Shown here one piece after another: positions 1,337 to 5,623 of a DNA stretch of 64,000 nt. Every line of letters starts with the position of its first letter. Positions within the stretch are counted from its first letter, which is position 1. A program made the translations under genes and the position numbers. The DNA is taken from assembly GCA_022770365.1 (NCBI GenBank), contig JALEHU010000006.1, positions 1-64,000 of the forward strand, given 5' to 3'. This DNA comes from Blautia sp. Lineage in GTDB: Bacteria; Bacillota; Clostridia; Lachnospirales; Lachnospiraceae. Under the pieces are notes generated by a model, which saw nothing but the letters and a program-made list of their open reading frames with translations, was not told the origin of the DNA and did not search any database.

Positions 1337-1359
1337 AAGAGAAAACAAGAAAGAAAAAC

Positions 1360-1386
1360 AAGGGTTCTGTCTTTGACAGAACCCTT
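1360..1386 (-). terminator. Intrinsic terminator for the minus-strand permease unit
   Basis: AAGGGTTCTGTC-TTT-GACAGAACCCTT, perfect 12 bp stem; minus strand runs into tgtttttctt. Confidence 0.8.
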
Positions 1387-1454
1387 ATCTGCTGGATGAA
1401 ACAATACAGGGAAAGAAGAAATATACTGTATTTCGTTTCGTGTCTACAGGGATT

Positions 1455-2861
1455 TTACAGGAATATATATTTCAGTACAAAAATAACCGCCAGCGCATAC
1501 ATCAGCGCGCTGATTTTCTTTTCTTTGGCCCTGCCGGTAATCAGGTTGATCACTACATAGGAAATGACTCCCATAGCGATACCTTCGGAGATGCTGTACA
1601 TAAATGGCATGGCGATGATCGCGATGAAGCAGGGAATCGCTTCTGTATAGTCATTGAAATCGATCTTTGTTATAGAGGTCAGCATCAAAAATCCTACGAT
1701 GATCAGGGCAGGTGCAGTCGCGAAGGACGGAATTGCCAGGAAAATCGGAGACAGAAACAGGGAAAGTCCAAACAGAATCGCCGCAACGACAGCGGTAAGT
1801 CCGGTGCGTCCGCCTTCCGCCACACCCGAGGCACTTTCCACGAAAGTAGTTACTGTGGAAGTTCCGAACATGGCTCCTGCTGTGGTTCCGACAGCGTCGG
1901 AGAGAAGCGCTCCGCGGATTTTGGGAAGCCGTCCGTCTTTGTCAAGCATGTCGGCTTTTGATGCCACACCGATCAATGTCCCCAGTGTATCAAACATATC
2001 CACAAATAAAAATGCAAACATGATCACAAAGAAATCCAGAGAAAATACAATGGAAAAGTCCATTTTCATAAAAGTGGGTGCAATACTGGGTATAGAAAGC
2101 CCGTTGGAAAAATCAGGGAGCAGACTGTAAAAACCAAGTTCAGCGTCAGGAACATAAAGTCCCATGAACTGGCAGAGGATTCCAAGTCCCCATGTGATGA
2201 GAATACCCCACAAAATACCGCCTTTGACGTTTTTGACAAGGAAGATCGCTGTAACGAGAAGACCGATCAGGGCTAACAGTACTGTGATGCCAAGGCTGTG
2301 AAAAGTTCCGTTCTCTACAGATCCTTTGAAGGAAAAAATGCCAACCAGGGTTGAATCATTGTTTACCACAATATGTGCATTCTGCAGTCCGATAAATGCG
2401 ATAAAAAGTCCGATTCCCACGGATACCGCATGTTTCAGATTGATGGGAATGGAGTTGAAAATAGCTTCCCGTACATTGGTGAGGGAAAGCAGAATAAAGA
2501 TGAGACCCTCTGCAAATACCGCTGCCAGTGCCTGCTGCCAGCTGTACCCCATACCCAGAACAACTGTGTAGGCAAAATAAGCGTTCAGTCCCATGCCCGG
2601 TGCCAGAACGAAGGGATAGTTGGAAAGCAGTGCCATCAGACAGGTGGCAATAAATGAGGACAGTGCGGTAGCCGTAAAAACTGCTCCCCGGTCCATACCC
2701 GATGCCTGCAGGATATTCGGGTTGACCGCCAGGATGTAAGCCATGGTCATAAATGTAGTAATACCTGCGATAACTTCTGTTTTTACATCGGTGTGATGCT
2801 CCTTCAAGTGAAATAGTTTGTCAAGATTCATAGATAGTCCCCCTTTTTTATTTTTAATCAT
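1455..2861 (-). CDS. NCS2 family purine (guanine/hypoxanthine/xanthine) permease
   Basis: 468 aa, multi-TM; MNLDKLFHLKEHHTDVKTEVIAGITTFMTMAYILAVNP and FVDMFDTLGTLIGVA are AzgA/PbuG-type signatures; start may be the internal MNLDKLF. Confidence 0.9.
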   Translation of the reverse strand: MIKNKKGGLSMNLDKLFHLKEHHTDVKTEVIAGITTFMTMAYILAVNPNILQASGMDRGAVFTATALSSFIATCLMALLSNYPFVLAPGMGLNAYFAYTVVLGMGYSWQQALAAVFAEGLIFILLSLTNVREAIFNSIPINLKHAVSVGIGLFIAFIGLQNAHIVVNNDSTLVGIFSFKGSVENGTFHSLGITVLLALIGLLVTAIFLVKNVKGGILWGILITWGLGILCQFMGLYVPDAELGFYSLLPDFSNGLSIPSIAPTFMKMDFSIVFSLDFFVIMFAFLFVDMFDTLGTLIGVASKADMLDKDGRLPKIRGALLSDAVGTTAGAMFGTSTVTTFVESASGVAEGGRTGLTAVVAAILFGLSLFLSPIFLAIPSFATAPALIIVGFLMLTSITKIDFNDYTEAIPCFIAIIAMPFMYSISEGIAMGVISYVVINLITGRAKEKKISALMYALAVIFVLKYIFL

Positions 2862-2894: not shown

Positions 2895-4184
2895 TCAAAA
2901 CAGCTTCCGGCCTGCAGCATATTTCCCGACAATATTCCTGTCATCCGCCAGATAGATCAGCCGCTCCAGACGGTCTCTGGAAGAGATTTTCTGCGGATGA
3001 GGCAGATTCTGATCGTCCAGAATGACAGCGTCAAATTCATAATCCTTTTCAAAACTGCCCACTTTGCCGAAGAAAGAACCGCCGCCGAGAGTTGCCATAT
3101 AAAACACTTCTTCCAGTGACAGAGGTTTACAGGTATCATCCACCAGGCGCCAGCGCAGCTTCGAAACCTGAACGGCATCTGTCATGGCACGCAGGATCGA
3201 AAGAGAGGAACCGCCGGCAATGTCGCTGCCAAGTCCCATGTGGAGGCCTTCCTCCAGGTAACGTCTGACAGGAGCGATCCCTGAGGCAATATTGGTGTTG
3301 GACTGCGGACAATGGGCAATGTAAACACCGCGTGTTTTCATGAGAGCAATTTCTTCTTCTGTACTGTAAACACAGTGTGCCATAATTGTCGGACAGCTTT
3401 TTCCTCCAAAGAGTCCGAACTGGTCATATGCTTCCCCGTAAAAACGGGTATTGGGGCAAAGCTCCTGCACCCAGGCAATCTCTCCGGGATTTTCAGACAG
3501 ATGAGACTGGACGGGGAGACGGTATTCCTTTTGAATGCGGGAAAGTTCCGTCATCAGTTCATCTGTACAGGAGGGTGTAAACCGGGGGGTCAGTATGGGC
3601 TTTGTATTTCTGTATTTCCCGCGGATCTCTTCGAGCCAGCGCCGGGTATCCCCGGCAGAGGCCCCGGCACTTGTTTCCTGAAGCGCGGAAGAACCGTTCC
3701 TGTCCATATTGACTTTGCCCACATAAGTTTTCAGCCCGGTTTCTTCCAGAAGATCCATCAATAGTTCTGTGGCTTCCACATGAATGGTCGCAAAAACGGA
3801 TGCACGTGTCGTGGCACTTTTTTTCAGATCGTTCATAAAAATGGAATAGGCTTCCCGGGCATAAGTGAGGTCGCGGTATTTGGATTCTTCCGGAAACGTG
3901 TAGGTATTCAGCCAGTCCAGGAGTTCCAGATCCATTCCGGTGCCGCGGTAGGTATACTGAGGCGCATGCAGATGAAGATCGGTAAGTCCCGGGATGATCA
4001 GGCAATCGCCGGTATCACGGCAGGGAATTCCGCTGTATTTCTTCGGAAGCTCCGAAAAAACGCCGGCGCAGATGCCGTCTTCACAGACCAGCCAGGAATT
4101 TTCATGGATATTGATCCTTTGTGCATCTGCACTGAAACAGATCGTGCCTTTTAATGCAAAAGTATTATGGGTCATATAGGTCAC
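2895..4184 (-). CDS. guaD: Guanine deaminase (amidohydrolase family)
   Basis: Metal-binding PGLTDLHLHAPQ, HLSENPGEIAW, MAHCVYS, HCPQSNTNIASG and GLGSDIAGG motifs. Confidence 0.88.
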   Translation of the reverse strand: MTYMTHNTFALKGTICFSADAQRINIHENSWLVCEDGICAGVFSELPKKYSGIPCRDTGDCLIIPGLTDLHLHAPQYTYRGTGMDLELLDWLNTYTFPEESKYRDLTYAREAYSIFMNDLKKSATTRASVFATIHVEATELLMDLLEETGLKTYVGKVNMDRNGSSALQETSAGASAGDTRRWLEEIRGKYRNTKPILTPRFTPSCTDELMTELSRIQKEYRLPVQSHLSENPGEIAWVQELCPNTRFYGEAYDQFGLFGGKSCPTIMAHCVYSTEEEIALMKTRGVYIAHCPQSNTNIASGIAPVRRYLEEGLHMGLGSDIAGGSSLSILRAMTDAVQVSKLRWRLVDDTCKPLSLEEVFYMATLGGGSFFGKVGSFEKDYEFDAVILDDQNLPHPQKISSRDRLERLIYLADDRNIVGKYAAGRKLF

Positions 4185-4219
4185 CTTCCTTCCAGCATTC
4201 AGGGAGGGGCAGAAACAGG

Positions 4220-4326
4220 AAAAGAAAAACTACCTGAATTTGTCTGCCGTCCCTGAAAAAACTTATAGACAACTATTCCGGTAGTTGGTAGAAACGTCCA
4301 ACCGATTATGGACTTATATAAGCTGT
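4220..4326 (-). promoter_or_regulatory. Purine riboswitch-like leader: aptamer about 4261-4326, putative terminator arms 4275-4286 and 4228-4239 plus U-tract 4220-4227
   Basis: Minus strand CTTATATAAGTCCATAATCGGTTGGACGTTTCTACCAACTACCGGAATAGTTGTCTATAAG: P2 GTCCA/TGGAC, hallmark GTTTCTACC, P3 CAACTA/TAGTTG, loop-loop GG/CC, C in J3/1. AACTACCGGAAT is complementary at 11 of 12 positions to downstream ATTCAGGTAGTT, followed by TTTCTTTT. Confidence 0.85.
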
Positions 4327-4346
4327 GAATTGATATTTATAAAATA

Positions 4347-4375
4347 ATTATAAAATAGGATGGGAGTTCTGTCAA
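4347..4375 (-). promoter_or_regulatory. Sigma-A type promoter for guaD-permease unit
   Basis: Minus strand TTGACA-17 nt-TATAAT immediately upstream of the aptamer. Confidence 0.85.
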
Positions 4376-4447
4376 TGTTTAATGCTGTTGATTTGCAGTA
4401 TAGAGGAATGTCTGATATAATGGATGCGTAATTGACAGGGAAAAGCT

Positions 4448-5623
4448 ATGGTGTTAGTGAAATGGAGGATTGTTTTGGAACTGAATCGGGAAAATATGAA
4501 AAAAATAGCAGCGTTGATCGCATTTGCGGTTTTGTTGTATCTGGGGCTGCAGCATCTTGAGCCGGTACTTGCATTCCTGGGAGAAATTGCAGGGATGCTG
4601 TATCCGTTTCTTCTGGGAGCGGCGATTGCCTTTGTACTGAATGTTCCAATGAGTTTTATTGAGCGTAAATTATTCGGTAAGGCGAAGGAAAAGGGAAATA
4701 AAGCGGCACGGAAACTGGCCAGACCGGTAAGCCTGGTGATATCCATTCTGGTTCTGGCTGTTGTGATTATGATCGTTGTTCTGGTGGTTGCACCGGAGCT
4801 TGGGAATACGTTCATCAGTGTGGGGAAAAGGATAGAACAGAATATTCCGGTCCTGCAGAAATGGCTTGGTGAGATTTTCCGTCCGGATTCCTATGTTATG
4901 AAATGGGTGAATTCGCTGGACTTCCAGCCTCAGAAAATGCTGAATACGGTAATGGATATGCTGAAAAACGGAGCAGACGGATTTTTATCATCAACCATTT
5001 CCGTGACAATGGGAATTGTAAATACGGCAATGAATTTTGGCATCGGTTTTATCTTTGCGTGCTATGTCCTTCTGCAGAAGGAAAAGCTTTCTGTTCAGGT
5101 GAAAAAAGCCATGTATGCCATCCTCCCGAAGAAAGCAGTAGCGTATTGTCTTCATGTGTGTTCTCTGGCACACCATATTTTTGCAAGCTTTATTGCAGGC
5201 CAGTGTATTGAGGCAGTGATCCTGGGAAGCATGTTCTTTGTGACCATGACGATACTGCGTTTTCCGTACGCGCTGCTTGTGGGCGTGCTGATTTCCTTTA
5301 CCGCACTGATCCCGGTGTTTGGAGGCTTTATCGGCTGTGCTGTGGGATTCTTCCTGATCCTGATGGTGAATCCGGTCCAGGCTTTTGCATTTTTGCTTTT
5401 GTTTTTTGTTCTGCAGCAGGTCGAAGGGAACTTTATCTATCCTCATGTGGTGGGAAATTCAGTGGGACTTCCTTCCATATGGGTACTGGCTGCAGTGACC
5501 ATAGGCGGAAGTCTGATGGGAATTGCGGGCATGCTGGTATTTATTCCGCTGGTATCAGTGCTCTATACGCTGTTTCGTGAGTGGGTCTATGACCGGCTGG
5601 CTAAGAAGAAAATCCGGATGTGA
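4448..5623 (+). CDS. AI-2E family transporter (YdbI/PerM-like membrane protein)
   Basis: 391 aa multi-TM; GVLISFTALIPVFGGFIG and QQVEGNFIYPHVVGNSVGLPSIWVL family motifs. Confidence 0.9.
   Translation: MVLVKWRIVLELNRENMKKIAALIAFAVLLYLGLQHLEPVLAFLGEIAGMLYPFLLGAAIAFVLNVPMSFIERKLFGKAKEKGNKAARKLARPVSLVISILVLAVVIMIVVLVVAPELGNTFISVGKRIEQNIPVLQKWLGEIFRPDSYVMKWVNSLDFQPQKMLNTVMDMLKNGADGFLSSTISVTMGIVNTAMNFGIGFIFACYVLLQKEKLSVQVKKAMYAILPKKAVAYCLHVCSLAHHIFASFIAGQCIEAVILGSMFFVTMTILRFPYALLVGVLISFTALIPVFGGFIGCAVGFFLILMVNPVQAFAFLLLFFVLQQVEGNFIYPHVVGNSVGLPSIWVLAAVTIGGSLMGIAGMLVFIPLVSVLYTLFREWVYDRLAKKKIRM

Follow-up and report, generated by a model that had tools for sequence, protein, structure and literature searches.

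A guanine-class riboswitch with a predicted ligand-ON architecture ahead of a guanine deaminase and permease unit in Blautia

The guaD locus and the aptamer in its leader

In the window (the whole 64,000-nt stretch of Blautia sp. DNA that was analysed), the guanine deaminase gene guaD occupies positions 2895-4175 of the minus strand (TIGR02967, E 2.6e-105; PF01979); its score of 352.7 bits against TIGR02967 lies slightly below the curated cut-off of 375.4, and ATG at 4175 is preferred over GTG at 4184 as its start. A gap of 63 nt separates it from a transporter of the NCS2/Xan_ur_permease family (1455-2831, minus strand; PF00860, E 1.7e-45), probably its operon partner, and an intrinsic terminator at 1356-1390 (minus strand) closes the operon, bearing out the guanine deaminase/permease unit proposed in the initial annotation of this DNA. 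The same genome holds four xanthine-dehydrogenase-type molybdopterin domain matches, so the xanthine produced by guaD may be used further. Upstream of the leader, a minus-strand promoter reproduces all 12 positions of the sigma-70 consensus, with TTGACA at 4370-4375 and, after a 17-nt spacer, TATAAT at 4347-4352, just as annotated, and the Shine-Dalgarno sequence AGGAAGG lies at 4184-4190 (minus strand), a position conserved in homologues. On the plus strand, a divergent promoter-like site (10/12, window positions 4392-4421) precedes a gene at 4448-5623 for an AI-2E/YtvI-type membrane protein, which shares its intergenic region with the riboswitch.

Between promoter and gene lies a match to the Purine aptamer family RF00167 (4246-4341, minus strand) that scores 50.4 bits, above the gathering threshold of 37, with an E-value of 1.5e-5 over the whole window; it is the top match of its clan and the only RF00167 match in this 2.99-Mb, 85%-complete genome. 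The search confirms the purine aptamer with short P2, P3 and GG/CC loops that had been recognized from the letters, and the covariance-model alignment, with pairs checked by folding, places each element on the minus strand: P1 pairs AGCUUAU (4318-4324) with AUAAGUU (4260-4266); the P2/L2 hairpin (4296-4313) has a short P2 of 5 bp (4313-4309/4300-4296); and the P3/L3 hairpin (4270-4287) has 6 bp (4287-4282/4275-4270) closed by the 6-nt L3 CCGGAA, 1 nt shorter than the consensus, with the GG of L2 (4303-4302) opposite the CC of L3 (4281-4280). Aligned to RF00167, the pocket nucleotides are U22 (4316), U47 (4294), U51 (4290) and C74 (4268), the last being the guanine-class specificity nucleotide, while J2-3 and J3-1 are without insertions, with a GUUUCUACC core and a J3-1 of 3 nt. 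The C at 4268 departs from the U at position 74 of adenine aptamers such as pbuE, and neither the J2-3 insertions of guanine-II and xanthine-II nor the U51G of xanthine-II, as described in PMC9295807, is present. By its sequence the aptamer would thus be of the guanine-I type (C74, U22, U47, U51, no junction insertions), and the identity of the core points to guanine as the ligand. Position 73 (4269) is U in place of the usual A; such a pyrimidine could alter ligand selectivity, or could tune terminator nucleation.

A terminator that takes up P3 and J3/1

Directly before the U tract UUUUUCUUUU (4220-4229, minus strand), the fold of RNA 4340-4215 contains a 17-bp terminator stem whose 5' arm (4267-4286, minus strand) begins at the second base of the P3 5' strand and runs on through L3, the P3 3' strand and J3/1, taking in C74, and whose 3' arm (AGACAA-AUUC-A-GGUAGUU) lies at 4228-4245 (minus strand). 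The stem consists of AACUACC/GGUAGUU (7 bp), a G-A mismatch, GAAU/AUUC (4 bp), a 2-nt bulge and UUGUCU/AGACAA (6 bp). The initial annotation had pointed out that the P3 5' arm and L3 (AACUACCGGAAU) match the segment before the U tract (AUUCAGGUAGUU) at 11 of 12 positions, which is exact; new to the present analysis are the 6-bp extension into J3/1 (UUGUCU, 4272-4267, with AGACAA, 4245-4240), which completes the 17 bp and reaches the ligand-contacting nucleotide, a helix beyond the U tract and the recurrence of the arrangement across the family. Since the terminator consumes P3, L3 and J3/1 including C74, terminator and ligand-ready aptamer are mutually exclusive, and this exclusion in turn gives the leader an ON architecture, in support of the ligand-ON prediction made earlier; the direction of switching is thus predicted from the architecture. 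An intrinsic terminator displacing J3/1 and P3 is the pbuE-like arrangement, and folding places one here, whereas the OFF expression platform that is typical of guanine-I, though not defining for it, is absent: folding and a terminator search of the guaD leader found no terminator that could coexist with the folded aptamer. The duplex between P3 and the terminator arm is worth -12.4 kcal/mol in this leader against a shuffle mean of -5.7, and one of 100 shuffles was as good.

Folding of growing transcripts, with energies that leave aside the ligand binding energy that would act at RNA ends 4228-4215, gives the aptamer as the minimum-energy fold (-15.0) for ends up to 4236, the terminator at end 4228 (-25.4 vs -15.5) and still the terminator at end 4215 (-26.0 vs -22.2), a margin of about 4-10 kcal/mol over this interval. 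At RNA end 4220 the probability of P3 is 0.00 and that of the terminator pairs exceeds 0.99, so the claim that terminator formation destroys P3 holds. From end 4205 onward a fold without the terminator is best again, owing to a 14-bp helix (4257-4250,4248-4243 / 4213-4208,4205-4198) that spans the U tract and ends 7 nt before the Shine-Dalgarno sequence; at end 4196 the aptamer-constrained fold leads the terminator-constrained one by 13 kcal/mol (-39.8 vs -26.4). The 5' arm of this helix (UUCAGGGA-C-GGCAGA, 4243-4257, minus strand) lies in the terminator loop, with AGA 4245-4243 common to the terminator, and its 3' arm (UCUGCC-CC-UCCCUGAA, 4198-4213, minus strand) is complete only after read-through. 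A role as antiterminator was rejected, the 3' arm being made only once polymerase is past the U tract, and a general lock after read-through was dropped as well, because the full-leader folds of most homologues do not restore P3. The helix is better than shuffles in 12 of 44 guaD leaders and in one of 19 FAD-oxidoreductase leaders and is therefore a lineage feature, outside the core mechanism.

We infer strand-displacement kinetics in which the aptamer would fold first and, without ligand, AGACAA-AUUCAGGUAGUU would invade J3/1 and P3 from the side of the ligand pocket, so that the 17-bp terminator would form before UUUUUCUUUU and transcription would stop ahead of guaD. With guanine bound, J3/1 (C74 paired with the ligand) would be locked together with P3 and the L2-L3 contact, the invading strand would be blocked, and polymerase would read through into guaD and the permease gene. 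After read-through, the helix 4257-4243 / 4213-4198 drawn from the terminator loop would render the aptamer fold the more stable one in the full-length mRNA.

Guanine-class leaders across the Lachnospiraceae

The RF00167 search was extended to 64 genomes from the genus and 396 from the family, and the leaders were sorted by finding aptamers by motif, clustering the first gene and classing the stem by the location of its 5' arm, with the earliest U tract that has an abutting stem used for each leader. The script classed the Bacillus subtilis xpt and pbuE sequences, which served only as its controls, as downstream and P3-class respectively, and its label ON:P1 for the xpt leaders of the survey was distrusted, as these stems mix P1 and downstream bases. 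Terminators invading P3 occur within the Lachnospiraceae in 44 of 69 guaD-type leaders (43/67 without two distant amidohydrolases), 19 of 25 leaders of an FAD-dependent oxidoreductase, all six xanthine dehydrogenase leaders and 12 of 19 NCS2 permease leaders, against none of 12 lipoprotein and none of three xpt leaders; the comparison of catabolic leaders (69/100) with lipoprotein and xpt leaders (0/15) gives a Fisher p of 2e-7, a nominal value because the leaders are related. Other clostridial families have the P3 type in three of 43 classified guanine riboswitch leaders, and in lipoprotein leaders, as in most of those from other families, a terminator lies downstream or is lacking. Among named close homologues of guaD an aptamer is found at 27 of 80 loci and absent from 53, relatives more distant than the close homologues frequently lacking one, and 14 of the 27 are of the P3 type, including those of Blautia schinkii DSM 10518, Hespellia stercorisuis and a MAG that bears the name of Flavonifractor, which is not a genus of the Lachnospiraceae.

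The mechanism is not uniform across guaD leaders: no terminator was found in 13 of the 69, seven have it elsewhere, and in some (e.g., L019, L023, L026) the aptamer adjoins the Shine-Dalgarno sequence. Leaders in which the aptamer lies 40-80 nt from the start codon without a terminator (L019, L023, L026, L086, L198, L201, L203, L204, L211, L218, L238) are probably under translational control. The FAD-dependent oxidoreductase, whose first 150 residues matched no specific NCBIfam model, is found behind guanine-class aptamers, mostly with P3-invading terminators, at L002, L004, L010, L011, L014 and L016 in Blautia and at some 20 further loci in the family, and is a candidate purine-catabolism gene. 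Guanine-class aptamers also precede MATE-family transporter genes (L048, L137, L142) and a YczE/YitT-like membrane protein (L003, L066), the terminator of the latter taking the P1 3' strand and being ON-type as well, and L089 (G323:C5:124712-124974) has two RF00167 matches on the same strand, 67 nt apart, ahead of a guaD-type gene, which may represent a tandem guanine riboswitch.

As shuffled spacers yield the P3-invading class in 23% of cases, single leaders prove little and the weight rests on the family data; a P3 terminator of equal stability arises in 6 of 1260 shuffles (0.5%). The duplex of P3 with the terminator arm averages -11.9 kcal/mol in guaD-type leaders against -6.2 for shuffles, and -6.4 against -6.6 in lipoprotein leaders. 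When arms were swapped among leaders, the own pairing (-14.2) beat the permuted one (-11.1) with 0 of 5000 permutations as good, again 0/5000 for 15 platforms sharing less than 60% identity and 4/5000 for seven guaD platforms, while the NCS2-permease leaders gave no significant result (646/5000); these permutations overstate independence, since the leaders are related. The alternative pairing in homologous leaders, set beforehand as the test of the proposal, is present and covaries: in a register independent of folding, anchored solely on the CC that is invariant in L3 and on the final GG that precedes the U tract, aptamer position 59 covaries with the terminator arm from A-U to G-C (0/2000) and position 62 through G-C, T-A and C-G (5/2000), as exemplified by CUACCUUAAUAG with CUAUAUUAAGGUAG in L021 and CUACCCU with AGGGUAG in L035.

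Ligand, direction of switching and known systems

We consider it likely, with a probability of roughly 0.8, that this leader is a transcription-activating, guanine-class (guanine-I type) riboswitch that controls guaD and the permease. The gene logic, a guanine deaminase with a purine permease in a genome with four xanthine-dehydrogenase-type matches, favours this reading, and the U at position 73 counts against it. An ON switch for another purine (xanthine, hypoxanthine, 8-oxoguanine or a nucleoside) could draw on that same position, which holds a pyrimidine (U or C) in 42 of 69 guaD-type leaders and a purine (A or G) in all 15 lipoprotein/xpt leaders; variants of the same fold sense xanthine, 2'-deoxyguanosine and 8-oxoguanine (PMC9295807), and the local pathway yields xanthine and probably accepts hypoxanthine as a co-substrate. 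However, U22, U47, U51, C74 and the lengths of the junctions match guanine-I, the U51G and the J2-3/J3-1 insertions of xanthine-II (PMC9295807) are absent from the guaD leader, and C74 is kept in 69 of 69 guaD-type leaders, which leaves another ligand an unlikely choice.

Control at the level of translation, with the leader hiding or freeing the Shine-Dalgarno sequence and the hairpin ahead of the U run being secondary, could draw on L019, L023, L026 and L198, where the aptamer lies 40-65 nt from the start codon without a terminator, and on the full-length RNA, in which enforcing the terminator pairs a pyrimidine tract with the Shine-Dalgarno region; it is decidedly improbable here, given the strong stem directly before UUUUUCUUUU and the U tracts that adjoin the stem in most homologues. 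An OFF guanine riboswitch of the conventional kind, in which the P3-complementary segment would be incidental or active only in the free state, would agree with the known guanine-I switches, which reduce expression when guanine is plentiful (PMC9295807), and with the four purine riboswitches of Clostridioides difficile, all OFF (PMC11477304), but the sole terminator before guaD uses P3 and J3/1, with none compatible with the aptamer in the leader, and the P3/terminator pairing covaries while lipoprotein and most other-family leaders place their terminators downstream or have none, and we regard an OFF switch as very improbable.

The guanine-activated reading joins two known designs. With guanine-I (RF00167; xpt-pbuX, purE and pbuG of Bacillus subtilis) the leader shares the three-stem aptamer, the joining sequences, U22/U51/C74, the GG and CC of a potential L2-L3 contact and purine genes downstream, whereas the known members are OFF with the terminator downstream of P1, and the present terminator takes P3 and J3/1, predicting ON, ahead of a catabolic gene. 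With the pbuE adenine riboswitch of B. subtilis it shares co-transcriptional ON switching by strand exchange, which in pbuE runs across P1, J3/1 and P3, the terminator taking J3/1 and the P3 3' strand into L3 (PMC7707468). Unlike pbuE, which has U74 and senses adenine, the guaD leader has C74. In pbuE the terminator arm starts within L3 and takes in the P1 3' strand, whereas in the guaD leader it begins inside the P3 5' strand, with the P1 3' strand remaining in the loop; NCS2-permease leaders of the Lachnospiraceae (e.g., L005) come nearer to the pbuE layout. The earlier remark that ON behaviour is best known from pbuE stands as a precedent, though not as the sole one, since ON is also predicted for two Paenibacillus variants (PMC9295807): guanine-II, likewise a guanine sensor, which is another aptamer type, marked by an insertion in J2-3 and further changes at the junctions, and acts on phosphoribosyltransferases, and xanthine-II, likewise tied to purine degradation including xanthine dehydrogenase, which has U51G, insertions in J2-3 and J3-1 and xanthine as its ligand. 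A literature search that left most subscription journals outside its reach, and so is weak evidence of absence, found neither a guanine-I ON switch nor control of guaD by the guanine-I class; with adenine pbuE as the experimental precedent, we describe the arrangement as guanine-I aptamers that, ahead of purine-catabolism genes, are combined with a predicted ON platform of the pbuE kind.

Across the Lachnospiraceae as a whole, the ordinary guanine-I riboswitch has probably been converted, by means of a P3-invading terminator, into the control of an ON regulon that is induced by substrate and serves purine catabolism (guaD, xanthine dehydrogenase, the FAD oxidoreductase and purine permeases), with uptake genes such as those for lipoprotein transporters keeping the downstream-terminator layout. 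If true, this would provide a large natural set of guanine-I aptamers on an ON platform, and hence a comparison of the same aptamer with opposite outputs; it would show how the sign of regulation is flipped by the expression platform with the sensor unchanged, in what is a textbook OFF system, and it would bring forward a candidate gene of purine catabolism, the FAD oxidoreductase, in purine-degrading gut bacteria.
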